Positions 15,393-31,838 of a stretch of DNA of 35,474 nucleotides are shown in pieces (the stretch's first letter is position 1; every line of letters starts with the position of its first letter). Source of the DNA: Prosthecobacter sp. GTDB taxonomy: Bacteria > Verrucomicrobiota > Verrucomicrobiia > Verrucomicrobiales > Verrucomicrobiaceae. Under the pieces are notes generated by a model. That model was not told the origin of the DNA, did no database searches, and saw only the letters and a program-made list of their open reading frames with translations. The translations under genes were made by a program, and so were the position numbers. The stretch covers positions 1-35,474 of the forward strand of contig JAUREI010000019.1 in assembly GCA_030827515.1 (NCBI GenBank). The letters run 5' to 3'.

Positions 15393-16655
15393 ATGCAGAA
15401 CCGATTTACCTTCGCCCGCTGCCTTGCCTTCTCGGCATGTTTGCTCCCCGTCACCTTGCCGGCGGCGGTTCTGCAAAAGTTGTCTCCGCGTGTTTCCGTG
15501 CCGGTAGGCTTGGAGAAGGACTTTGCCGGCACCTCCCTTCAGGTGTCAAAGGGTATTGCCAACGTGGAGGCGCTGATACGAGATCCTGCCGGAGAAGCTC
15601 ATTTGGCGGCAGGAGCCAGCCAATTGATTTTCAAATTCTCGCGTCAAGCGGTTCTCAGCCAACTTTCCTTTGTCAATGATGGGATGGAAGGGGAATTACG
15701 TCTGTCTGCCAGTCCCGATGGCCGGCAGTGGGCTATCCTGAGCAGCGAACGTTTCGCGGCCGCGGATCGCCAGGTTTCGGTCAGCCCGGGATGCGCGCAG
15801 GGACGCTTCATGAAGCTTGAATTTGACTCGCTCAAGGGCGGTACGATCCGCTGTTTGCATTTGCAGGGTGGGGATAGCGATCTGAATTATCAGGTGGTTC
15901 AGGACGGAGATGGCCACAGCGTCAACTTCGCCTCAGGGTTGGGTGGAGGACGCATGATTTATGCCACACCAGCCGACAATGCGGATCAACTCATGGTCGT
16001 CTATGATTTGGGGCAGGCGCGAGAGCTCACTGAGTTTGCTTCGGTGCACAGTCGTCAGCCGGCGGATTTGAAGGTTTACGCCATGTCCTCCCTGCCTCAG
16101 AAGGAAGACTGGCGGGGGCGCTTGCAGGCTGATCCGGCTCAGATTGGTCAGCCGGGACAGTTCGTGGCCGAGGTGAGCGATACCTTCGGCAGTGGACACA
16201 TGCGCGTTCGTCTGACGCGTCCGGTGACCACTCGCTACCTTGCCATGGTCTGGCAGAGCCAGATTGGCCTTGCTGGTTTTAAGACCTATGACATTGTCGC
16301 TAGCGGCCCCGGCAGAGTGACTCAGGTGAATCTTTCCGAGGTTGTGGCGGAATTCGCCGAAGCAACCTTGCAGTCATCCACTGGTGCATCCGGTGCCGAT
16401 AAATCGCAATCTGCCCCTCTGCTTGACCAAGTGGTCTATCATCAGGAATCCGCCGGCACCATGGCTTATTTCAGCAATTCCTTTGGTGCGGGCGGCGTCT
16501 CCGCTGGTGTGGGTTCGATGGCGGCGAAAGTCAGCAATTCAAGTGCCCGGCGTCTCAGCAAGGCCTTGGACGACCCTCCCCCTGACGAGGAAATCCCGGA
16601 ATTTGCTGGGCCGGCTTTTGGCATCGAATGGTGTCTGTCGCCAAGTGCTCAATGA
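15393..16655 (+). CDS. Secreted protein of unknown function, discoidin-like beta region
   Basis: 420 residues with a signal peptide (MQNRFTFARCLAFSACLLPVTLPAA). The body is beta-rich with two successive segments suggestive of jelly-roll/discoidin modules: LIFKFSRQAVLSQLSFVNDGMEGELRLSAS with GRFMKLEF, and VVYDLGQARELTEFASVHS with TTRYLAMVW. No catalytic motif is evident. The C-terminal 100 residues are Ser/Gly/Ala-rich and end in GIEWCLSPSAQ. Base composition is lower in GC than flanking housekeeping genes. The stop codon overlaps the next gene's probable ATG (ATGA at 16652-16655), so the two secreted proteins are probably made together and may act as a surface pair. I do not recognise the family; the discoidin-like reading is tentative. 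Confidence 0.72.
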   Translation: MQNRFTFARCLAFSACLLPVTLPAAVLQKLSPRVSVPVGLEKDFAGTSLQVSKGIANVEALIRDPAGEAHLAAGASQLIFKFSRQAVLSQLSFVNDGMEGELRLSASPDGRQWAILSSERFAAADRQVSVSPGCAQGRFMKLEFDSLKGGTIRCLHLQGGDSDLNYQVVQDGDGHSVNFASGLGGGRMIYATPADNADQLMVVYDLGQARELTEFASVHSRQPADLKVYAMSSLPQKEDWRGRLQADPAQIGQPGQFVAEVSDTFGSGHMRVRLTRPVTTRYLAMVWQSQIGLAGFKTYDIVASGPGRVTQVNLSEVVAEFAEATLQSSTGASGADKSQSAPLLDQVVYHQESAGTMAYFSNSFGAGGVSAGVGSMAAKVSNSSARRLSKALDDPPPDEEIPEFAGPAFGIEWCLSPSAQ

Positions 16656-19600
16656 GATCCAGAGTAATGCATATGATGGCTGAATTTCCTCCCCATTTCC
16701 TTACCGTGAAACTCCACTTTCCCAAGCACCTTTGGACCACATGGTTGTTGGTCTCCCTGCTCGGCTCCACGGCTCTCTTCGCCAACACGGCGCCGGTGAT
16801 CGATCGTCAGCCCTATCGTGTTCTCTACGATACCAATCACGATCCCATCGGAGAGTGGCCGCCTATCGACATTGATCCGCCGCGCGTCGATGCCAGTTCA
16901 TTGGTCAACATAGGCTGCGCCATCGATCTGCGCATCGTTGCAAGCGGTCCTGACCTGAGCTATCAGTGGAAAAAAGACAATGCGAACATTCCGGGTGCGA
17001 ATGGTTCTCAGCTCTACATCAATGTCAATTCCCTCGCAGATGAAGGTGTCTATCGTTGTGTCGTGAGCAATCCCTATGGTACCCAGGTTAGCATGCCAGT
17101 ACGCATGGGTATTGTGGATGTCAGCTCCTCCAACTACTTTGTGGCCGCCGACAGTAGAGCGAAGGTCTCGCTGCAGGCAGTTGTCAAATTCCCTACGACT
17201 ATCGGCGGGTTTAAATACCGCTGGTATAAAATGCTGGACGCGAATCCCAACATCAACACCGATGAAATGCTCACGGATGGCGGGGGCTTTTCCGGTGCCA
17301 CCAAGTCGAAGCTGAGCGTCAATGTCACCAGCACGGATGTCGCCGGCAGCTACTACTGCGTCGTGACAGCCTACAACACCTACATGCTGGCAGGCCTGCA
17401 TCACCTCGCCGTGGTGCCCGCCCCAGAGCCGACCATGGTCCAGCTCGGTGCACCGATGAATTTTTCGGTGACGCCGATCGGCCCGGCCCACCTGCTTGGC
17501 GGACTGGAGTACCAGTGGCTCAAGGACGCTGCTGAAATCCCCGGCGAGACAAATGCCACTTACGTTGTCGCCAGTGCCGGGACCGGAGATGTCGGCCTGT
17601 ATTCAGTGTTCGTCACGCACCCCACCTTGGATGCCGTGACCACGCCGCAGGCGGCGGGCTTGGTGATTGACGAACCGGTCAGCCATGTGTTGGCGATTGC
17701 GACCGGCACCACCTCGCTGATGGCCCCAGCCCCTGTCAGCACCGCGCAGACCTTCCAGTGGTTCCGCAACGGCAATCCCGTCCTTGATGGTGACCGTTTC
17801 AGCGGCGCCACCAAGGCGAAGCTGGGAATCAAAGCCGTGGAACCTGCAGATGCAGGCGACTATGAGTGCCGTGGTACCCTCTATGGTGACACGGTCGTGG
17901 TCGCCCGCCCGGTGCTCATCGTTCTGCCGGCGCCACTCTCGCAAGTCGCCGCCCTTGGCGGTGGCTTTGAGCTGGAGGGCCTTCCCGAGTATGATTCCTC
18001 CCTGGCCGTGGATGCCGGTGACTTTGAATATCAATGGATCAAGGGAAGCGGGCGCAGCGCTGCGCCTGTCGATGGTGAGACGGCATCTGCATTCACGGTC
18101 GCCACCGCTTCCCTAACTGACGTCAGCAATTATTGCCTGCAGCTCAACTATCCGGGGGCGAATCCAGTGAAAAGTCTGCCGGCCGCCGTTGCTGTGGTCG
18201 ACACCATGCCAATCACGGTGAATGTCAACGCCGGCAGATCCACCAGTTTGAAGCCCGTTTATAGCGGCCGCGGGGTTGCATTCGAGTGGCGCCGCGGTGG
18301 CCTGCCTATTGAGGAGAGCCCGCACTATGTGGGTGTCAGCAAAAATGCCCTCTCGATTGTGGGCGCCTCGTTGGAGGATGCCGGAGATGATTACGAATGC
18401 ATCATCAGCTACCCTGGCGGCTCGTCGGTGGCGGCGCCCTTCGAAGTGGTGGTCTATTCTGCGCCGGAGATTCTTGACTTCGAACTGCCTGAAATGATAG
18501 TTGGCGGTGCGGTGAACTACGCCATCACCTGCAGCCCCGATCCGCTCTACGCTCCGCAATCTTTCGATGCCAAGGTAGTTCTCGAAAGCGGTCGCTTGTC
18601 AAATCTGCCAAAGGGCTTGGTCATTGACCGGTTGACTGGGAATATTACCGGATCTCCGACTGTGTCCGGCTCCTTCACCATTCGCGCGCTTGTCAAGAAT
18701 GCGGTTGGAACCACGACCGTTGACAGCCAGCTTGTGATTCATGCCTTGCCTGATTACCTGCTTGGCCGTTACACGGGGCCGTTGCCGCGCATGCCTGCCG
18801 GCGAATTCTGCGACCTTGGTGGACGTATCGACCTGACCGTCACCTCGACCGCGGCCGTCAGTGGCAAGTTGACCGTCGGAACTGTTGGCTACTCATTCAA
18901 GGGCGTGCTTTCACTCGACAGCACCGATCCTCTCACCGCAACGGGCAGCGCCGAAATCGTTTTGCCACGCACGGAAGGCAACTTGACACTGAATTTCGAT
19001 TTAGGATCAGACAATTATCTGAGCAATGGAGTCATCACAGGCGCAGAAAACACAGTCGCTTTCACGGGCTGGCGAGGTGTTTATTCCACTTCTAATCCGC
19101 CGGCTGAGTATGCTGGCCGATACAACGTTGCAATGTTCACAAATTCTTACGGGGAATTGGATAAACCCCAGGGTGTTAGCTACATCAGTTTAAATATTGA
19201 TGCATCTCCGAGCTCTGACTTTACAGCTGGCAACTACATCGCGGCGGGACAATTGGCCGATGGCCTGTCCAGAGTGACGACGGCATCAGTAATTGGTCCT
19301 GCAGGAGAATTCCTGATCTATCAGGTTCTTTACTCCACGGCTGAAAAGGGATCTTTGACAAGCCTGGGTATGGCGATCTATGAGGGTGGGGCTGTTACTG
19401 GTAACATGTATTGGAGTTGTCCGGCTAATGCATCGACTCGGCGTTATCCTGCCGGTTTTGATCCGTTGGATCTGGCGGTTTACGGGGGTCGTTATGTGGC
19501 CGGAGACCGTTTGCTTGGGGTAAATCAAGCGAGCTTATCGGCCTATGATGGCGGCATCGAGGAGGCCTCAATCAATCCTAACGCTCTGTTCGATATCGGC

Positions 19601-19918
19601 CTTGGAAATGTGCGTCCGGTGCGTAACGGGCCAAGCGCCGCTTTCACTGCGATCTCGAATTCGAACCTGAGCCTTGGGACCTTTGCAGGTAGCTTCAAGC
19701 TGGCGGATGACAATCCCGCGACACCAGCATTTAACCCAACGGAATACAAGCGGACTGTCAAATTTTACGGGTTGGCGGTGCCTATTCTAACTCAAGCACC
19801 AGTAGGATATGGCTACTTCGTGATGCCGCAAATTCCGACCCTCGATCCGCCAACCACCCCATTCACTTCTCCGGAACTCTCTGGTAATATCAGTTTCGAT
19901 CCCGTAGTCCCAGATTGA
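16652..19918 (+). CDS. Large secreted Ig-like repeat protein
   Basis: 1,088 residues from ATG 16652, chosen because it overlaps the previous stop as ATGA; ATG 16667 and the track start 16628 are alternatives. After an N-terminal export signal (LWTTWLLVSLLGSTALFA) come about six Ig-like domains, each with a core Trp (YQWKKD, YRWYKM, YQWLKD, FQWFRN, YQWIKG, FEWRRG), four of them with a typical D-x-G-x-Y-x-C end (DEGVYRCVV, VAGSYYCVV, DAGDYECRG, DAGDDYECII). A putative He_PIG-type Ig domain follows at about 620-700 (LPKGLVIDRLTGNITGSPT). The last 370 residues form two or three beta domains with GRYTG/AGRYNV/GGRYVAG motifs. Such proteins are typical of verrucomicrobial cell surfaces or matrices. 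No PEP-CTERM, LPXTG or T9SS tail is seen. Confidence 0.85.
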   Translation: MRSRVMHMMAEFPPHFLTVKLHFPKHLWTTWLLVSLLGSTALFANTAPVIDRQPYRVLYDTNHDPIGEWPPIDIDPPRVDASSLVNIGCAIDLRIVASGPDLSYQWKKDNANIPGANGSQLYINVNSLADEGVYRCVVSNPYGTQVSMPVRMGIVDVSSSNYFVAADSRAKVSLQAVVKFPTTIGGFKYRWYKMLDANPNINTDEMLTDGGGFSGATKSKLSVNVTSTDVAGSYYCVVTAYNTYMLAGLHHLAVVPAPEPTMVQLGAPMNFSVTPIGPAHLLGGLEYQWLKDAAEIPGETNATYVVASAGTGDVGLYSVFVTHPTLDAVTTPQAAGLVIDEPVSHVLAIATGTTSLMAPAPVSTAQTFQWFRNGNPVLDGDRFSGATKAKLGIKAVEPADAGDYECRGTLYGDTVVVARPVLIVLPAPLSQVAALGGGFELEGLPEYDSSLAVDAGDFEYQWIKGSGRSAAPVDGETASAFTVATASLTDVSNYCLQLNYPGANPVKSLPAAVAVVDTMPITVNVNAGRSTSLKPVYSGRGVAFEWRRGGLPIEESPHYVGVSKNALSIVGASLEDAGDDYECIISYPGGSSVAAPFEVVVYSAPEILDFELPEMIVGGAVNYAITCSPDPLYAPQSFDAKVVLESGRLSNLPKGLVIDRLTGNITGSPTVSGSFTIRALVKNAVGTTTVDSQLVIHALPDYLLGRYTGPLPRMPAGEFCDLGGRIDLTVTSTAAVSGKLTVGTVGYSFKGVLSLDSTDPLTATGSAEIVLPRTEGNLTLNFDLGSDNYLSNGVITGAENTVAFTGWRGVYSTSNPPAEYAGRYNVAMFTNSYGELDKPQGVSYISLNIDASPSSDFTAGNYIAAGQLADGLSRVTTASVIGPAGEFLIYQVLYSTAEKGSLTSLGMAIYEGGAVTGNMYWSCPANASTRRYPAGFDPLDLAVYGGRYVAGDRLLGVNQASLSAYDGGIEEASINPNALFDIGLGNVRPVRNGPSAAFTAISNSNLSLGTFAGSFKLADDNPATPAFNPTEYKRTVKFYGLAVPILTQAPVGYGYFVMPQIPTLDPPTTPFTSPELSGNISFDPVVPD

Positions 19919-22638: not shown

Positions 22639-22820
22639 GAGCTGTAAGTCACGGGAAGCCGGCGAGGGGCGGGGGCCGCTTTCACCGGGGCGTGGGAGGT
22701 GGATACTTGCACAGGAGTGCCCTTCGTCAACGACTTTCTGGGCCGCCCAAGGGCGCTGTGACGCCATCGCGCCATTCTTCGGCACTGGCGGGCGCAGGTG
22801 AAAGCTGTCAAAGTGCCCTG

Positions 22821-24767
22821 ATGCCGGTCCGTGCTGTCTTCCTCCTGTTGCTTGCCTGTCTGCCGCTTTTGCCGGCCGGCTGTGGGGGGCTTGACCCACT
22901 GTTTGCAGACGGGGAGTTGCAGAGACTGACGGAAGAAATCGCCGCCACCGAAGCTAGGCTGGTTACCCTGCCGGAGCTGCGGGTTGCGGCTCAGACACAC
23001 CAACGCCTTGGTTTTCATGGTCGCAGCGCCGAGCCCGCCTGGATGGAAATCGATTTGGCAAGGGCGGCGGTGCTCGACGAGATCGTGCTTTTTCCAGCCC
23101 GGACGACAGAACCCGCCAACGGTGAAGCCGCCAGCGGGTTCCCGCCGGAACTGCGCGTGCTCGGCGCAGCAGCCGATGAGGCTCTGCAACCCCTGGCCGA
23201 GTGGCGTCAGCCGGAGGGCACGGCGGCGTTTGATCCGCCTTTCCTGCGCCTGCCGCTGCCGGGTTCGCTGCTGCGCCGGTTGCGTTTGGAAGTCCGCGGC
23301 GGCCAGGCGCGTGGTCGCGTCCGGTTTTTTGCGCTGGGCGAGGTGGTTCTGCTAGCCGGGGGCGCCAACCTCGCGCTTGGCGCGCCGGTTCGCGCCAGCG
23401 AAGGCATTGTCAACCCGCCGCGTTGGCAGCCGGCAAACCTGACCGACGGCTTCCTCTGGTTCGGCAACCTGCAGGGCCAGGGCATTGCTCGTGCAAACGG
23501 CTTCCACAGCCGCATCGAGTCGTCGCCGGAAGCCGTGCCCAAGTGGGTGGAAGTGGATCTCGGCAGCGAGGCCGCGATTGATGAGGTGAGGCTGGTACCC
23601 GCGCGCCCCATCGATTTCGCCGATGTCGCCGGCTTTGGCTTTCCGCCGCGCTACCGGGTCGAGTTGCTGCCGGAAAGCGGCCCGGGACTCACCCTTGACG
23701 CCAATCCGGAGGCTTCGCCCAACCCTGGCGATGCTGCCGTCTGCCTGCCGGCGGGAGGGCGTTCCGCCCGGCGGGTGCGGGTCATCGCTGAGCGGCTCTG
23801 GCAGCGCAGCGACGACTACATTTTTGCGCTCGGCGAACTGCAGGTTTGGGCCGGTGGTCGCAATCTGGCACTCGGTGGACATGTGGTTAGTTCGGACCAC
23901 GTGGTGGCTGCCTCCTGGCCATCGCAGGCCCTGGTGGACGGCCATGATAGCCGCCGGGAATTGTTGTCATGGGTGGATTGGCTCGAGCAGGTCAGCCTGC
24001 GCGCGACACTGACCCGCTCGCTGGAAGCCGCGCGCCAGAGGCTCGCAGTTGTCGAGCGCAGCCGTCAGCGCGCGGTTGTGCGAACGGTCCTCCTTGGCGG
24101 TGGTTTGCTGCTGGTCGCCTTGGTCGCCTTGCTGAGCTGGATGCACTATCGGCAGAAGCTGGCCCGCCAGCGCCTGCGCGAGCGATTGGCCCGCGATCTG
24201 CACGACGAGATCGGCTCGCAACTCAGTCACCTGTCCCTGCTGGCCGGCCAGGGTGAGGCCGCTGCCCTGCCTAGGATTGCCGCCGGGGCTCGTGAGTTGC
24301 AGCAGGTCATGCGCGACCTGGTCTGGCTGCTGGCCCCCGGCGGCGGCGATGCCCGCGATTTCACGGCCCGATTGCGGGCGACTGCAAGGCAGTGGCTTGA
24401 GCCAGTGGTCACCGAGGTGCAGGTCGAGGCGAACGGATCGCCACCTCCGGGTCATTTGCCGCTCGACTGGGCGCGCGAGGTGATGCTGTTTGTCCGCGAG
24501 GCCCTGACCAATGCCGCCCGCCACAGCCGTGCCCAGCGTGTGTCGGTCCTGCAAGAATGGCGGCCAGATGCCTTTGCATGGATTCTTGAAGACGACGGCG
24601 TTGGATTCGACGAGCAGGCCTCCGGGTTTGCCGCCGGTTCGGGTCTGGGCAATCTTCGCCATAGGGCCGGCGTTTTGCAGGGAAAACTCGTCATCAACGC
24701 CCGCCCCGGCAGCGGCACCCGCATCGAACTGACCTGCCCGCTCCCTCATGAATCTCTGGCTAATTGA
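22821..24767 (+). CDS. Membrane sensor histidine kinase (HisKA_3 type) with periplasmic discoidin-like modules
   Basis: 648 residues from ATG 22821. The N-terminal hydrophobic segment (MPVRAVFLLLLACLPLLPAGC) is a signal or anchor ending in a lipobox-like LPAGC, though Pro at -3 is unusual. The periplasmic part (about 30-410) holds two discoidin-like modules. The first contains AWMEIDLARAAVLDEIVLFPAR and FFALGEVVLLAGGANLALG. The second contains RWQPANLTDGFLWF, KWVEVDLGSEAAIDEVRLVPAR and RSDDYIFALGELQ. The start of a third (NLALGGHVVSSD) follows. A membrane helix lies at about 417-440. The NarL-type kinase core has His461 in RDLHDEIGSQLSHLS, the N box EALTNAARH and EDDGVGFDEQ. It overlaps the response regulator gene by 20 bp. 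Discoidin modules commonly bind sugars, so glycan sensing is a reasonable inference. Confidence 0.85.
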   Translation: MPVRAVFLLLLACLPLLPAGCGGLDPLFADGELQRLTEEIAATEARLVTLPELRVAAQTHQRLGFHGRSAEPAWMEIDLARAAVLDEIVLFPARTTEPANGEAASGFPPELRVLGAAADEALQPLAEWRQPEGTAAFDPPFLRLPLPGSLLRRLRLEVRGGQARGRVRFFALGEVVLLAGGANLALGAPVRASEGIVNPPRWQPANLTDGFLWFGNLQGQGIARANGFHSRIESSPEAVPKWVEVDLGSEAAIDEVRLVPARPIDFADVAGFGFPPRYRVELLPESGPGLTLDANPEASPNPGDAAVCLPAGGRSARRVRVIAERLWQRSDDYIFALGELQVWAGGRNLALGGHVVSSDHVVAASWPSQALVDGHDSRRELLSWVDWLEQVSLRATLTRSLEAARQRLAVVERSRQRAVVRTVLLGGGLLLVALVALLSWMHYRQKLARQRLRERLARDLHDEIGSQLSHLSLLAGQGEAAALPRIAAGARELQQVMRDLVWLLAPGGGDARDFTARLRATARQWLEPVVTEVQVEANGSPPPGHLPLDWAREVMLFVREALTNAARHSRAQRVSVLQEWRPDAFAWILEDDGVGFDEQASGFAAGSGLGNLRHRAGVLQGKLVINARPGSGTRIELTCPLPHESLAN

Positions 24768-25374
24768 AGACCACCGCGCCCTGCGTGAATCGCTTGTGCT
24801 CGCTCTCCGTCAGGCCCGGCCGGACTGGAGCCTGCAATCCTTTGCCTGCGCCGAGGACGCGCTCGCTGCCGCGGCGGCTGGGGTGGTGACCGACGTGCTC
24901 CTGCTCGATCTTGGTCTGCCCGGCCTCGGTGGTCTGGAGGCTTTGCCGTTGTTGAAGGCGGCGCTGCCCACGGCCGAGGTGGTGGTCTTCACGGTCTTCG
25001 ACGATGCCGACAAGATCTATGCGGCGGTCTGTGCCGGTGCTTCGGGTTACCTGCTCAAGTCGGAGCCGGTCGAGACCGTTGTACGTGCGGTTGAGGAAGT
25101 TCGCGAGGGCGGGTCGCCCATGCATCCGCAAGTGGCGCGCAAGGTGCTTGACCGCCTCAGCGGGCGACGGCAGGCACCGGAATCAATCCTGTCAGAACGC
25201 GAGCGCGCAGTGCTCCAGGCCATGGCCGAGGGGTTGACGAAAAAGGAGATTGCCGCCCGGCTCGACCTCAGCGTGCACACGGTCGACAACTACCTGCGCC
25301 GCATCTATCGCAAGCTGCATGTCAACACCCTCCAGGGTGCGGTGGCGAAGGCGCTCAAGGACGGCCTCCTGTGA
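24748..25374 (+). CDS. NarL/FixJ-family response regulator
   Basis: 208 residues. The receiver domain (1-118) has the acidic pair ED (7-8), phospho-acceptor Asp54 in LLLDLGLPGLGG and the conserved Lys in GYLLKSEP. The C-terminal LuxR-type helix-turn-helix (about 143-205) contains LSERERAVLQAMAEGLTKKEIAARLDLSVHTVDNYLRRIYRKL. It starts inside the 3' end of the kinase gene, so it is its cognate partner. The next gene is a DUF1549 protein 48 bp downstream in the same direction, the most obvious candidate target along with DUF1501. Confidence 0.95.
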   Translation: MNLWLIEDHRALRESLVLALRQARPDWSLQSFACAEDALAAAAAGVVTDVLLLDLGLPGLGGLEALPLLKAALPTAEVVVFTVFDDADKIYAAVCAGASGYLLKSEPVETVVRAVEEVREGGSPMHPQVARKVLDRLSGRRQAPESILSERERAVLQAMAEGLTKKEIAARLDLSVHTVDNYLRRIYRKLHVNTLQGAVAKALKDGLL

Positions 25375-25422
25375 CGCGATGCCGTGGCAGGAAAAGCACC
25401 GTGCTACACCGTATTCCTTGGT

Positions 25423-28359
25423 ATGATACTTCGCACCGTTTTCCTGCTGGTGGTCGCCACCTTCGCGGCCGCAGCGCCCGATTTTGAGCGCGAGGTGGCG
25501 CCGATTCTTGAGTCGCGCTGTCTGTCTTGCCATGCGGCCGGCAGTGCCAAGGGCGATGTCCGTCTCGACACCCGTGCCGGGGCGCTGGAACACCTGGTTG
25601 CCGGCCGGCCCGACGCCAGTTCCCTGATCGAGCAGGTCAGTGGCCCTGAACCTGACATGCCCAAAAAGGAGAAGCCCCTGACCGCCGCGCAGGTGGACAT
25701 CCTGCGTCGGTGGGTGCAGGACGGAGCGCCCTGGCCGGAGTCGCGCGTGCTAGTCGACCGCCCGGCGCGTGATTTGGAATGGTGGAGTCTCCGGGAGATC
25801 CGCAGCCCGGCCCTTCAGGGACAGCAGGCCAATCCGGTGGACTACCTGCTGGAGGCGAGGCTGGCCGAACGGGGTCTCAGGCCGGTGGCTGAAGCCGACG
25901 CGGTCACCCTGATTCGCCGGCTGAGCTACGACCTCACGGGCCTGCCGCCCTCGCCCGAACAGGTGGCAGCGTTTGCCGCCGATTACAGCCGCCACGCAGG
26001 GCCTGCGGTCGATGCGGCAGCCAGGCGTCTGATGGCCTCTCCGGCGTTCGGGGAAAAATGGGGCCAGCACTGGCTCGACCTCGTCCGCTACGCCGAGACG
26101 CACGGCTACGACAAGGACAAGCCGCGCTCCAACGCCTGGCCGTACCGGGATTATGTCATCCGGAGCCTCAACGGCGACAAACCCTATGACCGCTTCGTGC
26201 AGGAGCAGATTGCCGGTGACGCCTTGTATTCCGGCGATCCCGACGGCGTGCTGGGTCTCGGCTTTCTCGCCGCCGGTCCCTGGGATTTCATCGGTCACAC
26301 GGAGGTCGGCGAGGGCAAGGTCGACGGCCGCATCGCCAAGCATCTCGACCGTGATGAAATGATCTCCGCCGTCTTCAACGTCTTCACCAGCACGACGGTT
26401 CAGTGCGCCCAGTGCCATCACCACAAGTTCGATCCGGTGACGATGCAGGACTACTACCGCCTGCACGCCGTCTTTGCCGCCGTCGACCGTGCCGAACGGG
26501 TGTACACCGGATTGCCGCCCGACCAGGAACGGCGGCGCAACGCGCTGCTCGCGAAGGTCAATACCCTGAAGGCTGAACGGAGTCGTCTGCAAAGCGAGGC
26601 CAAACGCGAACTCGGAGCGCGCACCTCGGGGATTGAGCGACGCCTGGATGAACTCAAGTTGAAGCATGGCTCGCCCCTTCGCCCGCAGTATGGCTGGCAC
26701 AGCCAGATCTCCAAAGTTCAGGAGACGGTCAAGTGGGTGCAGCTTGATCTCGGCAAGCCGCAGGGGGTCGAACAGATCCGGCTCATTCCAGCGTACGACA
26801 CCTACAACGGCATCGGCGCCGGTTTTGGATTTCCAGTTCGCTATCAGGTCGAGGTAGGCAACGACGCCGAGTTTAAGCAGGGCGTGCGACGGGTTCGCGA
26901 TGCCACCGCCACCGACCAAGCCAATCCCCGTCATGGCGAGATCCTGATCGACGTCGGTGGTGAGGCCGTGCGCTATCTGCGTGTCACCGCCACCCGTCTC
27001 GCGCTGCGCCAGGATGACTACATCTTTGCTCTCGGTGAGTTGCAGGCGATCGGTGGTGAGAACCATGACAATCTTGCCCTGGGGGCCGCGGTGCATTCCC
27101 TCGACAGTATTGAGGCGGCGCCACGATGGGGTCGGGCCAATCTCACGGATGGCATCTGGCATCGCGAAGTGGGTGATCCCGGCGTTCTCGCCGAACTGCG
27201 TGAACTGGAGGCACAAAAGGAGGCCATCGAGAAGGAGTTGACCGATCCTGCCCGCGAAACGCGCCTGCAGGCCATCGCCGCGGAGCTCGCCGTGTTGAAT
27301 CCCGAACTCGCAGCCTTTCCCAAGGGGGAGGTGGTGTATGCCGCAGCCACCGACTTCAATGCGCAGGGCCGATTCCTCCCGACCGGCGGCCGGGCGCGCG
27401 AGATTCGCCTGCTGCAACGCGGTGACATTCGCTCACCCGGCGACCTCATGCGTCCAGGCCTCCCACCGCTTTGGCCCGGAGCGCCGGAGCAGTTCGATGT
27501 GAAAGCGGACACCCCCGAAGCCGACGCCCGCGCCGAACTCGCCCGGGCAATCACGGCGGGCGGGAACCCGCTGTTCTGGCGCAGCATCGTCAACCGGCTC
27601 TGGCTGTGGACCTTCGGGCAGGGGCTTGTTGCCAGCCCCAATGATTTCGGGCGCATGGGTCAGCCGCCGAGCCACCCCGAACTGCTGGAGTTCCTCGCCG
27701 CCCGGCTGCGCGACGATCCGCGTCACTCGCTCAAGGACATTGTCAGGCTGCTGGTCACCAGTCGCGCCTATCGCCGGGCCACGGTGCACGACGAGGGTAA
27801 CGCCCGCATTGACGCCAACAATGAGCTTCTCTGGCGAGCCAATCGCCGACGCCTGACCGCCGAGGAATTTCGCGACAGCCTCTTGCAGGTGGCCGGTGTC
27901 CTGCGACTTGAACCGCGCGGTGGATCGAGTTTTCAGGATTTTGTCATCGAGAAGCCCCAGCACTCGCCGCATTACCAGTATCATCTCCATGATCCGAACG
28001 ATCCGGCAGGCCACCGCCGCAGTGTCTATCGCTTCATCGTGCGCAGCCAGCCGCAGCCCTTCCTGACCAGCCTCGACTGCGCCGACCCTTCGCAAAGCGT
28101 GCCCCAGCGCGATGAATCCACCACGGCGCTGCAGGCACTTGCCCAGTGGAACAACCGCCTGGTTGAGGCCATGTCCATCCAGTTTGGCAAGCGTCTGGCC
28201 AAGGAGGCCGATCCCGTGACTGCGGCCTGCCTCGCTGCCCTGGGACGCCCGCCGACGAACGCGGAGCAGGTCGCCCTGGGTGGGCACCTCAAGGAACATG
28301 GCACCACCGCCCTGGCGCGGGTGATGTTCAACCTGAACGCCTTCGTTTACCTCGACTGA
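25423..28359 (+). CDS. Exported cytochrome-c/DUF1549/DUF1553 protein with inserted discoidin-like module
   Basis: 978 residues from ATG 25423, which gives a signal peptide (MILRTVFLLVVATFAAAA). Domains in order: planctomycete-type cytochrome c (PSC1) with heme motif CLSCH at 33-37; DUF1549 at about 110-330, ending near a second CxxCH (CAQCHHHKFDP, Cys328); a coiled segment (RNALLAKVNTLKAERSRLQSE); a discoidin-like insertion at about 415-580 (VKWVQLDLGKPQGVEQIRLIPAY, RQDDYIFALGELQ, RWGRANLTDGIW); another helical stretch; and DUF1553 at about 690-960. The family is abundant in Planctomycetota and Verrucomicrobiota, usually paired with DUF1501 and associated with polysaccharide use, but its biochemistry is unproven. 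The insertion closely resembles the sensor region of the histidine kinase two genes upstream. Confidence 0.9.
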   Translation: MILRTVFLLVVATFAAAAPDFEREVAPILESRCLSCHAAGSAKGDVRLDTRAGALEHLVAGRPDASSLIEQVSGPEPDMPKKEKPLTAAQVDILRRWVQDGAPWPESRVLVDRPARDLEWWSLREIRSPALQGQQANPVDYLLEARLAERGLRPVAEADAVTLIRRLSYDLTGLPPSPEQVAAFAADYSRHAGPAVDAAARRLMASPAFGEKWGQHWLDLVRYAETHGYDKDKPRSNAWPYRDYVIRSLNGDKPYDRFVQEQIAGDALYSGDPDGVLGLGFLAAGPWDFIGHTEVGEGKVDGRIAKHLDRDEMISAVFNVFTSTTVQCAQCHHHKFDPVTMQDYYRLHAVFAAVDRAERVYTGLPPDQERRRNALLAKVNTLKAERSRLQSEAKRELGARTSGIERRLDELKLKHGSPLRPQYGWHSQISKVQETVKWVQLDLGKPQGVEQIRLIPAYDTYNGIGAGFGFPVRYQVEVGNDAEFKQGVRRVRDATATDQANPRHGEILIDVGGEAVRYLRVTATRLALRQDDYIFALGELQAIGGENHDNLALGAAVHSLDSIEAAPRWGRANLTDGIWHREVGDPGVLAELRELEAQKEAIEKELTDPARETRLQAIAAELAVLNPELAAFPKGEVVYAAATDFNAQGRFLPTGGRAREIRLLQRGDIRSPGDLMRPGLPPLWPGAPEQFDVKADTPEADARAELARAITAGGNPLFWRSIVNRLWLWTFGQGLVASPNDFGRMGQPPSHPELLEFLAARLRDDPRHSLKDIVRLLVTSRAYRRATVHDEGNARIDANNELLWRANRRRLTAEEFRDSLLQVAGVLRLEPRGGSSFQDFVIEKPQHSPHYQYHLHDPNDPAGHRRSVYRFIVRSQPQPFLTSLDCADPSQSVPQRDESTTALQALAQWNNRLVEAMSIQFGKRLAKEADPVTAACLAALGRPPTNAEQVALGGHLKEHGTTALARVMFNLNAFVYLD

Positions 28360-28363
28360 TGTC

Positions 28364-29794
28364 ATGAACCGCCGACACCTGCTCTCCTCCCTGCCTGGTC
28401 TCGCCCTGGCCGACCTATTGCTGCGCGATGGCGCTCTTGCCGCCTCCGGCGTGCTGAATGCCGGCCTGCATCATCCACCCCGTGCCAAGCGGGTCGTGCA
28501 GCTTTTCATGGCTGGCGCCGCCAGCCATCTCGATCTCCGGGATCACAAGCCGCTGCTGAAGCAGAAAGACGGGCAGCCTTGGGACCCCGGTGAGAAGGTG
28601 GAACTCTTCCAGAGCACGCCCGGTGCCTGCTTTGCCAGTCCCTGGTCCTTCCGGGCCCACGGTGAGTCGGGCAAGATGTTGAGCGACATTGTCGCGCCAC
28701 TGGGTGATGTGGTGGATGACATTGCCTTCGTCCACAACGTCGTCGGCAAGACCGGTGTGCACAGCCAGGGCACGCTTCTGCAGACGACGGGCTTCCAGTT
28801 GCCCGGATTCCCCAGCGCGGGCTCGTGGGTCAGCCACGCTCTCGGCAGCGAGAGCGACAACCTGCCGTCTTTTGTCGTTTTGCCCGACCATCGTGGACTG
28901 GCCTCCAATGGTGCCAAGAACTGGGCCAGCGCTTTTTTGCCCGCCCAGCATCAGGGGACCGTCATCCGCCCTGGAAGTGAGGCACCCGTGGCTGACCTGC
29001 TGCCACCCGCCTCCGTCGCCCCCGCCGCCGATCGCGCCGGACTTGATGTCCTTGCTCGGCTGAATGCCGCCCACGCGCGGGAACGTACCGGTGACGACCG
29101 CCTGCAGGCGCGGGTGCGAAGCTACCAGCTCGCCGCCGCCATGCAGCTCAGTGCCACCGATGCGCTCGACGTTGATGGCGAGCCGCGGCATATCCGGGAG
29201 ATGTATGGCCTGGCCTCGGAAGGCCCCGGTGTCGAGGATACCACGATCAACGTCAAGGCCGAGACGGAATTCTTTGGGCGCAAGTGCCTCGTCGCGCGCC
29301 GCCTGCTCGAGCGTGGCGTCCGTTTCGTGCAGATCTGGAGCGGCAACGACAACGGCTTTCCGCGCCGGAACTGGGACAGCCACGAGGACGTCAAGCGTGA
29401 CCATGAACCGCTCGCCCTTGGCATGGCGCGCGGAGCGGCGGCTCTCATCAAGGACCTCAGGCAGCGCGGCATGCTGGACGACACGATCCTCCTCTGGACC
29501 ACCGAATTCGGTCGCATGCCTTGCTCCCAGGGCAGCCGTGGCCGTGACCACAACCCCTTCGTTTTCACCAACTGGCTCTGCGGGGGCGGGGTCAAGGGCG
29601 GCACCTACGGTGAAAGCGATGCCTGGGGATTCCGCCCGGCCGATCCAGGTCGAGCCACCACGGTCTATGACATCCATGCCACTGTGATGCACCTGCTTGG
29701 CATCGATCATGAGCGCCTGACCGTTCGCCACAATAGCATTGACCGCCGATTGACGGATGTTCACGGCCATGTCTTGACCGACCTGCTGGCCTGA
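28364..29794 (+). CDS. DUF1501 family protein (sulfatase/alkaline phosphatase-like fold)
   Basis: 476 residues. The N-terminus (MNRRHLLSSLPGLALADLLL) is a Tat-like signal of the form usual in this family. The body has the DUF1501 hallmarks VVQLFMAGAASHLDLRDHKP, VHNVVGKTGVHSQG, SHEDVKRDHEPLALGMARG and TTEFGRMPCSQGSRGRDHNPFVFTNWL, related to metal-binding loops of the alkaline phosphatase/sulfatase superfamily. The classical sulfatase C/S-x-P-x-R formylglycine site is not seen. It starts 4 bp after the DUF1549 gene, so the two are surely co-transcribed. Paired DUF1549/DUF1501 genes are a recurrent planctomycete/verrucomicrobial module with no settled function. Confidence 0.93.
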   Translation: MNRRHLLSSLPGLALADLLLRDGALAASGVLNAGLHHPPRAKRVVQLFMAGAASHLDLRDHKPLLKQKDGQPWDPGEKVELFQSTPGACFASPWSFRAHGESGKMLSDIVAPLGDVVDDIAFVHNVVGKTGVHSQGTLLQTTGFQLPGFPSAGSWVSHALGSESDNLPSFVVLPDHRGLASNGAKNWASAFLPAQHQGTVIRPGSEAPVADLLPPASVAPAADRAGLDVLARLNAAHARERTGDDRLQARVRSYQLAAAMQLSATDALDVDGEPRHIREMYGLASEGPGVEDTTINVKAETEFFGRKCLVARRLLERGVRFVQIWSGNDNGFPRRNWDSHEDVKRDHEPLALGMARGAAALIKDLRQRGMLDDTILLWTTEFGRMPCSQGSRGRDHNPFVFTNWLCGGGVKGGTYGESDAWGFRPADPGRATTVYDIHATVMHLLGIDHERLTVRHNSIDRRLTDVHGHVLTDLLA

Positions 29795-29864
29795 GGACGC
29801 ACGATCACCCACGGCAAGGATAAAGAAGCGATGGAAGCATCCGTCTCCCACGTTACCATGGGGC

Positions 29865-30506
29865 ATGCCAGCCAAAGTCCTGACCATCCTGCTCACCGAC
29901 GACCATGCCGTTGTCCGCAACGGCTTTCGTCACATCCTCGCGGCGGAATGGGACATGGAGGTGGTGGGCGAGGCTTCCAATGGCCGTGAGGCGGTTGAAA
30001 TGGCTGACCGGCTCAAGCCCGATGTGGTCGTCATGGATGTGACCATGCCGGAACTCAACGGAATTGAGGCCGCCCGCCGGATCTGCAAGGCCTGTCCGCG
30101 CACCCGTATCCTGGCCCTGTCGATGCACAAGGATGCGGTCTATGTGCGCGAAATCCTGAGGGCCGGTGCGCACGGATACCTCCTCAAGGACTCGAGTCAG
30201 GCCGATTTCCTCTCGGCGGTGCGGGCTGTCGCCGTTGGCAAGGGCTGGCTCAGTCCCGAGGTTTCCGACGCGGTGCTGGATGACTACCGGCGCCACGTCA
30301 GCAATCCGGTTGACCTGCTTTCCACGCGCGAGCGTGAGGTGCTGCAACTCATTGCGGAAAGCAAAACCAACAAGGAGATTGCCTCGGCCCTGCATCTCAG
30401 CGTGTACACCGTCGAGGCGCATCGTTCGCGCATCATGGAAAAGCTGAACCTGCACTCGATCGGAGAATTGGTTCGTTTTGCCATGCGCAACGGACTCATC
30501 GACTGA
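29865..30506 (+). CDS. NarL/FixJ-family response regulator (second system)
   Basis: 213 residues. The receiver domain has DDH at 12-14, phospho-acceptor Asp58 in VVVMDVTMPELNG and Lys in GYLLKDSS. The LuxR-type helix-turn-helix at the C-terminus reads LSTREREVLQLIAESKTNKEIASALHLSVYTVEAHRSRIMEKL. It is more typical of the family than the first regulator. The kinase gene follows after 9 bp, reversing the kinase-regulator order of the first system. It lies 70 bp downstream of the DUF1501 gene, so it may belong to the same transcript or have its own promoter in that gap. Confidence 0.95.
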   Translation: MPAKVLTILLTDDHAVVRNGFRHILAAEWDMEVVGEASNGREAVEMADRLKPDVVVMDVTMPELNGIEAARRICKACPRTRILALSMHKDAVYVREILRAGAHGYLLKDSSQADFLSAVRAVAVGKGWLSPEVSDAVLDDYRRHVSNPVDLLSTREREVLQLIAESKTNKEIASALHLSVYTVEAHRSRIMEKLNLHSIGELVRFAMRNGLID

Positions 30507-30515
30507 GGGATTTTC

Positions 30516-31838
30516 ATGCCGGACCAATGGCTCATTCTCGGGAGGCGGGTGAACGAGCGCACCGTCCTGCGTGGTCTGATTGCTGGATTCGGCACGGTCA
30601 TGCTGCTGCTCGGGGCGGCTGGCTGGCTGGCAGTGCACGAAGGACGGTCCATCCGTCTGAATGCCGAGGAACTGATGCGCGAGCAGGTGCTTGTCACCCG
30701 TCTGCTGCATGAGGCGCAAGTTGAGGAAGATGCACTTGCGCTGGCACTGCACCGGTTGACGAGTTCGGCGGAACTGGCGGAGCGCGCGGAACGCGTTCAC
30801 GAACTGGAAGAGGCCGATCGCGCCATCGCACGCCTGGCCGCTCAGGCGAGCATGACGGCGCAGGCGGAGCCCTGGCGGCACCTGGCGGCGGCGACCCGGC
30901 TTTTTTCCGAGGGAGTGCGCCAGGCCTTCGAGGTCCAGGGCAATGTCCCCCGTGAAAGCATGGAGCGTCTGTTCTCCGCTCATGATGAGGTTGTGCGCCT
31001 GATTCACGGCCTGATTCTGGAGAGCACGGACCATCTGGAGACGCTGGATCTGCGCCTCTCCGGCCACCTGCGCACCCTGGCCGGGAAGTCCGCGCTGCTG
31101 CTGGGATCGGCAGTTCTGTTGTCCTGTGCCTGCGCGGCGGGTACCATTGGTTACGTGCGGGCCAGTATCCGGCACATTGAGGCGCAGGCGGATGAACTTC
31201 ATCGTGTGTCGTGGCACATGCTGCAAGGCCAGGAGGAGGCGGCTCGGCGCTTCAGTCATGAACTCCATGATGAACTGGGCCAGTCGCTCGCCGCGGTTCG
31301 CGCCAACCTCGTTGCGCGTTCCGGACCCGACGAGGCGCACCGCCGGGCCGACTGCCTGCAGTTGGTCGATTCGGCGATCGCCAACGTGCGCGAACTTTCC
31401 CAGCTGCTGAGGCCTGTGATCCTCGATGACTTTGGTCTGGATGCCGGCCTGCGCTGGCTGACCGAGGGATTTGCACAGCGGACGCGGCTGCAGGTGGATT
31501 ACGAGTCCGATCTTGCCGAGCGTCTGCACAGTGATCTCGAAACGCACCTATTCCGCATTGGACAGGAGGCACTCACCAACGTCGCCCGGCATTCCGGGGC
31601 GACGCGGGTCTCCCTGCACCTGCGCACCGAAGACGGCCGCGTGCGACTGGACATTGAGGACAACGGCAGGGGGCTGCCGGCGGACATGACTTCCACGCGT
31701 CCGGGCCTGGGGTTGACCGGCATGCGCGCACGTGCCCGTCAATGTGGAGGCATTTTGGAAATTGAACCCGTGTCACCACACGGGCTCGCTCTGCGTGTCG
31801 ATGTGCCCCTGCGGCCAGCCGAACCCGAGCGGGCTTAG
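30516..31838 (+). CDS. Membrane sensor histidine kinase (HisKA_3 type), second system
   Basis: 440 residues. Two membrane helices (about 20-40 and 192-213) flank an exported helical region of about 150 residues rich in Glu, Ala and Leu, resembling a four-helix-bundle sensor such as CHASE3 or MCP-type ligand domains. The cytoplasmic part has His251 in SHELHDELGQSLAAVRANL, the N box EALTNVARHSGATRV, the G1 box DIEDNGRGLPAD and the G2 box GLGLTGMRARA. Unlike the first kinase it has no discoidin modules, so it senses a different cue. It is the partner of the regulator immediately upstream. Confidence 0.93.
   Translation: MPDQWLILGRRVNERTVLRGLIAGFGTVMLLLGAAGWLAVHEGRSIRLNAEELMREQVLVTRLLHEAQVEEDALALALHRLTSSAELAERAERVHELEEADRAIARLAAQASMTAQAEPWRHLAAATRLFSEGVRQAFEVQGNVPRESMERLFSAHDEVVRLIHGLILESTDHLETLDLRLSGHLRTLAGKSALLLGSAVLLSCACAAGTIGYVRASIRHIEAQADELHRVSWHMLQGQEEAARRFSHELHDELGQSLAAVRANLVARSGPDEAHRRADCLQLVDSAIANVRELSQLLRPVILDDFGLDAGLRWLTEGFAQRTRLQVDYESDLAERLHSDLETHLFRIGQEALTNVARHSGATRVSLHLRTEDGRVRLDIEDNGRGLPADMTSTRPGLGLTGMRARARQCGGILEIEPVSPHGLALRVDVPLRPAEPERA

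Follow-up and report, generated by a model that had tools for sequence, protein, structure and literature searches.

A discoidin module common to a sensor kinase and the adjacent DUF1549 enzyme suggests a dedicated sense-and-act circuit in Verrucomicrobiales

In the stretch of Prosthecobacter sp. DNA analysed here (35,474 nucleotides, hereafter the window), a sensor histidine kinase and the adjacent diheme DUF1549/DUF1553 protein carry the same type of discoidin module, and most of the relatives examined also have matching upstream sites. Taken together, these findings suggest a dedicated sense-and-act circuit in the Verrucomicrobiales. The favoured reading, to which a probability of roughly 0.6 is given, is that of a glycan-responsive circuit in which the kinase senses a glycan and a NarL-type regulator switches on the module-bearing enzyme. 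In such a scheme, the two discoidin modules of the kinase, both apparently permuted, would sense a carbohydrate, or else a complex of enzyme and ligand, on the outer side of the inner membrane. The kinase would phosphorylate the NarL-type regulator encoded beside it, and the regulator would bind copies of an inverted repeat, TGTSACG-N6-CGTSACA, that lie ahead of two operons, its own and the DUF1549-DUF1501 one. Binding would turn on the diheme periplasmic enzyme, whose single copy of the module would hold the same class of substrate as that sensed.

The kinase, the regulator, the enzyme and a DUF1501 protein are encoded by four genes placed head to tail (Table 1), the 5' end of the regulator gene overlapping the 3' end of the kinase gene by 20 bases and the DUF1501 gene beginning 4 bases past the stop codon of the enzyme. 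Start codons were inferred, the likely ones being ATG 22821 for the kinase and ATG 25423, not GTG 25384, for the enzyme. The kinase is composed of an N-terminal hydrophobic segment, two discoidin modules, one transmembrane helix and a HisKA_3 plus HATPase_c core of the DesK/NarX type, in which H461, within DLHDEIG, is invariant; with a regulator that joins a receiver to a LuxR-type helix-turn-helix, these are the parts of a NarL/DesK-type two-component system. The enzyme bears a signal peptide and two CxxCH haem motifs (residues 33 and 328) and, by its PSCyt1, PSCyt2 and PSD1 domains as well as its DUF1501 partner, belongs to the PSCyt2-PSD1 proteins. DUF1549/DUF1553 and DUF1501 proteins number about 50 per genome in these bacteria and are without a known substrate (He et al. 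2017, PMC5615132). Directly downstream of the DUF1501 gene lies a second pair of NarL-type regulator and HisKA_3 kinase (29862-31838), this kinase being devoid of discoidin units; of just four HisKA_3 kinases in the whole genome, two are encoded in the window. Further upstream, a 1096-aa protein with several immunoglobulin-like domains is encoded at 16628-19918.

Table 1. Position of the annotated features within the window, with the basis of each assignment.
Feature	Position	Strand	Basis
Candidate operator of the kinase gene, TGTGACG ccatcg CGCCATT	22757..22776	+	3 mismatches to TGTSACG-N6-CGTSACA
Sensor histidine kinase, 648 aa	22821..24767	+	Pfam; AlphaFold2 (pLDDT 90.6); Foldseek to DesK/VraS
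Kinase discoidin unit 1 (core plus NLALG..ANLTDG tail)	22989..23456	+	Profile match
Kinase discoidin unit 2, with DDYIFALGELQ at 23811-23843	23475..23954	+	Profile match; 43% identity with the enzyme insert
Kinase catalytic core, phospho-acceptor His in LARDLHDEIG	24165..24743	+	HisKA_3 and HATPase_c (Pfam)
NarL/LuxR-type response regulator	24748..25374	+	Response_reg and GerE (Pfam)
Candidate operator of the enzyme gene, TGTGACG cgatgc CGTGGCA	25370..25389	+	Exact match unique in the genome; conserved in relatives
PSCyt1-PSCyt2(DUF1549)-discoidin-PSD1(DUF1553) protein, 978 aa	25423..28359	+	Pfam; AlphaFold2 (pLDDT 81.6)
Discoidin insert of the enzyme (apparently permuted), between two long helices	26662..27177	+	Profile match; AlphaFold2; Foldseek; DDYIFALGELQ at 27013-27045
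Tail of the enzyme insert (NLALG..ANLTDG), equivalent to the N-terminal part of an ordinary discoidin domain	27070..27162	+	Pfam re-ordering test
DUF1501 protein	28364..29794	+	Pfam (E=8e-129)

The existence of a common module had been proposed in a first-pass annotation on the basis of short strings, and it was borne out at full length, since blastp aligned kinase and enzyme with 66 of 155 residues identical (43%, E=1e-25). This similarity, also recovered by profile, Foldseek and Pfam comparisons, lies far beyond chance and beyond the strings themselves. The enzyme contains one copy and the kinase two, module 2 being the closer to the enzyme (E=1e-25, compared with 5e-12 for module 1). As for the strings, DDYIFALGELQ is exactly repeated in both proteins, although written with different codons; RW-xx-ANLTDG was located at 23421-23450 in the kinase and 27124-27153 in the enzyme, KWV-x-[VL]DLG at 23541-23564 and 26731-26754, respectively, and GFGFP-x-RY-x-VE in both. 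The remaining string, I-x-x-[VI]RL, is similar in the two proteins but not in its first residue, which is I in the kinase and V in the enzyme (IDEVRLVPA and VEQIRLIPA). The loop preceding GFGFP is conserved within each class, reading PAHPxD in the kinases and PCYDDFGGIG in the enzymes, a difference that speaks against a common ligand. In the enzyme, RW..ANLTDG follows the core, but in the kinase it separates the two cores, because each unit is made of a core and a tail, as in a permuted discoidin domain.

The module is of the F5/8 type C (discoidin) class and CBM32-like. A profile built from 63 modules retrieved from the PDB the neuropilin b domains, the CBM32 of a GH31 enzyme, lectinolysin and a fucolectin-related protein. 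In the AlphaFold2 model of the enzyme, the insert has pLDDT values mostly between 85 and 97 and lies at the tip of a helical hairpin, and Foldseek matched this model with a probability of 1.00 to CBM32 modules binding chitosan, galactose and fucose (E around 1e-3), as well as to neuropilin b1 and factor VIII C2, the TM-score by target ranging from 0.40 to 0.62 overall and from 0.5 to 0.6 for these CBM32 modules. The same search with the kinase model returned kinase cores only and gave no information on the sensor part; for the DUF1549 part, no solved structure similar by sequence was found. The Pfam cut-off for F5_F8_type_C (28.2 bits) is passed by the isolated enzyme module (29.7 bits), whereas the whole kinase and the whole enzyme fall below it and the kinase unit alone scores 17.6 bits. 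The strand order is not the usual one, in which NLA..DG precedes the core, since the enzyme unit begins with the core and ends with NLALG..DG. When the tail was placed first, the score increased in the three proteins assayed, the enzyme and two relatives (from 29.7 to 32.9, from 32.6 to 36.8 and from 31.7 to 40.3 bits) and the match extended towards the start of the profile. The single enzyme unit and both kinase units therefore appear to be circularly permuted.

The first-pass annotation had named a general occurrence of the insert in DUF1549 proteins as the finding that would speak against it. Over four genomes, the module was found in 4 of 216 PSCyt2 genes (50 genes in the Prosthecobacter genome and 48, 51 and 67 in the other three), exactly one per genome, and a general feature of the family is thereby ruled out. 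It had also been suggested that other kinases with this module should be sought next to DUF1549 genes, and among the 60 best-matching tandem-module kinases, picked by similarity and blind to their neighbours, 33 have a module-bearing DUF1549 gene within 7 kb, while the chance expectation is about 0.2; only 8 DUF1549 genes without the module lie within that distance. Matching modules are present in 196 of the 289 genomes of the order, where kinases with two units are common and usually followed by a NarL-type regulator. With an alignment as the query, the kinase family was also detected in Akkermansiaceae, Opitutus, Pelagicoccus, Haloferula and Pontiellaceae; the same scan with the window kinase alone gave no matches. 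Tandem-discoidin kinases are strongly expanded in some genomes of the Verrucomicrobiota (G432, G490, G505 and G445, with at least 10 modules). In three loci (L053, L056 and L059), the kinase is preceded by an ECF sigma factor gene and a gene for a 324-aa protein lacking any Pfam match.

Relatives of the kinase also occur far from any module-bearing DUF1549 gene. Their neighbours comprise GH106 and GH78 rhamnosidases, GH116, GH127, sulfatases, TonB receptors and DUF1592/DUF1552 sets, which point to glycan sensing; together with the fold, this is the basis on which the module would be expected to bind carbohydrate. Conversely, in three genomes (G011, G171 and G188) a module-bearing enzyme was found and no module-bearing kinase, so that a strict dependence of the enzyme on the kinase is ruled out, many of the genomes being fragmented metagenome assemblies.

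Aligning the regions upstream of closely related kinases first brought to light a conserved block, the 7-6-7 inverted repeat TGTSACG-N6-CGTSACA, which precedes the module-bearing DUF1549 genes and, less uniformly, the kinase genes. The site of the enzyme gene in the window overlaps the regulator stop codon, 34 bases before the enzyme ATG, and is the only exact match in the 4.05 Mb genome both to TGTSMCG-N6-CGKGRCW and to TGTSACG-N6-CGTSRCA; in G056 and G088 the exact degenerate pattern also occurs once per genome, before the module-bearing DUF1549 gene. With up to 2 mismatches, the repeat was found upstream of 31 of 50 enzyme genes and 14 of 85 kinase genes, compared with 7 of 903 control upstreams. 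With up to 3 mismatches, a spacer of 6 gave 34 of 50 and most other spacers 0 to 5. A spacer of 11 gave 31, a count explained by a second, CATGAAA-like half after the site. Of 32 upstreams, scrambled half-sites matched 0.1 on average and never more than 2, compared with 30 observed. The kinase site of the window shares its left half-site with that of the enzyme but is weak when taken alone, since sites with no more than 3 mismatches occur in 5.4% of the 903 control upstreams; its support comes from four relatives (L040, L039, L043 and L047). Just after the enzyme site, a TGAAA .. CGTAT pair is seen in the window (25390-25423) and in relatives, some 10 bases before the ATG, and might be a promoter of the ECF type that gives a nearly leaderless transcript.

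The kinases could be sorted into type A, which includes that of the window, type B and others, and the presence of the enzyme site depends on these types. The site was found in 36 of 36 enzyme genes where the genome holds a kinase of either type A or type B, and in 2 of 20 where it holds neither (Fisher 9e-13), a figure to be read with the motif and the kinase types having been set post hoc from partly related sequences; independent contrasts gave 5 for and 0 against (median sign test, p around 0.06). The kinase side is less regular: the commonest site of type B has 4 mismatches, no good site was found upstream of three type A kinases (L041, L046 and L049), and in one family (f4) the gene pair stands side by side and the operator is absent. 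The enzyme site persists where the two genes are unlinked. In G137, with the pair on separate contigs, there are six near-perfect sites in 6 Mb, of which two precede exactly these two genes, and in G004, also unlinked, the variant CGTGACG is present at both; in several genomes the half-site variants of kinase and enzyme agree. That the shared repeat would tie kinase and enzyme into one circuit, even when unlinked, is thus well supported by the genomic comparison.

The repeat might nevertheless be read not by the adjacent regulator but by some other factor, be it a different response regulator or an ECF sigma factor. G011 would fit this: no kinase of this kind and no close regulator were found there, yet its module-bearing DUF1549 gene (L105) keeps a near-perfect operator. 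The ECF sigma genes ahead of some kinases and the promoter-like pair after the site would fit it too. We regard this as unlikely, given that the site tracks the type A/B kinase, that its dyad form suits a dimeric LuxR-type regulator and that the half-site variants go together at the two genes.

Quick trees were used to follow the history of the module. The second units of the kinases group together in one clade, with the enzyme units as its sister clade, and the module-bearing DUF1549 proteins are themselves a single clade; on these trees, the module was gained once in DUF1549. In two DUF1549 proteins with two modules (L101:8256-11765 and L106:7857-11132), the first groups with the enzyme modules and the second with the kinase second units. 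This history bears on the proposal that sensor and enzyme acquired the module independently and use it for different ligands, the linkage reflecting locus clustering; the module would then be an accessory domain common among the glycan loci of Verrucomicrobia. The kinase family is indeed widespread and often away from DUF1549, and F5/8C domains are already known in PSCyt proteins (He et al. 2017, PMC5615132), but the sister relationship, the single gain, the shared operator and the predominance beside these kinases of a module that so few DUF1549 genes possess make independent acquisition improbable.

A further alternative keeps the same regulatory circuit and takes the module as a protein-protein contact: the enzyme module would pair with those of the kinase, so that the enzyme, free or substrate-bound, would itself be the signal and serve as a feedback co-sensor. 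He et al. 2017 (PMC5615132) place F5_F8_type_C in PSCyt genes under protein-protein interaction, the predicted position at the hairpin tip would be compatible with a contact, and a single-copy module enzyme is paired one-to-one with the kinase. However, the modules of linked kinases and enzymes are no more alike than shuffled ones (identity 0.379 vs 0.384), most of the nearest solved structures are CBM32 domains that bind sugars, and there are the kinase relatives distant from any module-bearing DUF1549; the chances of this alternative are accordingly judged low. The same identities, with the module tree, deprive the identical 11-mer of any special meaning: it is a conserved family motif that coincides here by chance. 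Although the match is exact over 11 residues in the window, the deep split between kinase and enzyme modules and the linked and shuffled identities, besides the different codons, rule out that one gene recently copied or converted the other.

Returning to the glycan-responsive circuit, a wider proposal is put forward tentatively, at somewhat less than even odds: tandem permuted-discoidin kinases would be glycan sensors throughout the Verrucomicrobiota, where they would be the equivalent of the hybrid systems of Bacteroides, and the present branch would be nearly a one-target regulon, in which the sensor and the diheme DUF1549 enzyme recognise one glycan by means of sister modules. Were one glycan recognised by both, the ligand of the sensor would therefore reveal the substrate of this DUF1549 protein. 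What makes the case useful is that one DUF1549 protein can be linked both to an apparently nearly single-target operator and to a sensor whose module is related to its own, so that the ligand of the kinase modules would give a first substrate hypothesis for a DUF1549 enzyme. Moreover, the kinase modules are small and expressible, the 20-base operator offers a simple reporter for the inducing condition, and a large family of candidate glycan sensors is named in the Verrucomicrobiota.

As regards known systems, the PSCyt2-PSD1 proteins of He et al. 2017 (PMC5615132) are like the one described here in their architecture, their F5_F8_type_C insert and a conserved adjoining gene of unknown function; F5/8 and carbohydrate-binding inserts are reported there in PSCyt genes and a role in carbohydrate metabolism is suggested. 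No kinase with the same module, no operator and no permutation are reported in the available part of that paper. Compared with that part, the first-pass view of an undescribed design holds for the sharing of the module with a kinase, but not for the presence of F5/8 type C domains in PSCyt genes. In the literature covered, which mostly excluded subscription papers, no kinase and DUF1549 enzyme with a common module and operator were found, nor anything on the three DUFs together or on a discoidin histidine kinase in Verrucomicrobia.

The closest system in principle appears to be that of RsgI1-6 and the SigI regulons of Clostridium thermocellum, where the outward carbohydrate-binding module of a membrane regulator is of a kind also present in the cellulosomal components under its control, with autoregulation (PMC4711584). 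RsgI is, in contrast, an anti-sigma factor of a Gram-positive organism acting on known cellulosomal glycoside hydrolases, while a histidine kinase and a diheme DUF1549 protein are found here, and the RsgI N-terminal anti-sigma domain is absent from the kinase, in which Pfam detects kinase domains only. The circuit would thus work like the RsgI biomass sensors and not be a member of them. The hybrid sensors of Bacteroides carry a periplasmic propeller. The hybrid two-component systems of Bacteroides polysaccharide loci also sense glycans beside the genes that they control (PMC10766802), but in a single protein, whereas here the HisKA_3 kinase and the NarL-type regulator are encoded by separate genes (Table 1) and the modules are apparently permuted discoidins. 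In Pontiella, HisKA_3 (PF07730) kinases and regulators likewise lie near GH and sulfatase genes, although neither the sensor domain nor the target site is described in that report (PMC10880615); the Pontiellaceae, as stated above, contain relatives of the window kinase. The known kind to which the system would belong is, in short, glycan-responsive two-component regulation, and what is new here is the inverted repeat common to the upstream regions of the kinase and of the module-bearing DUF1549 gene.
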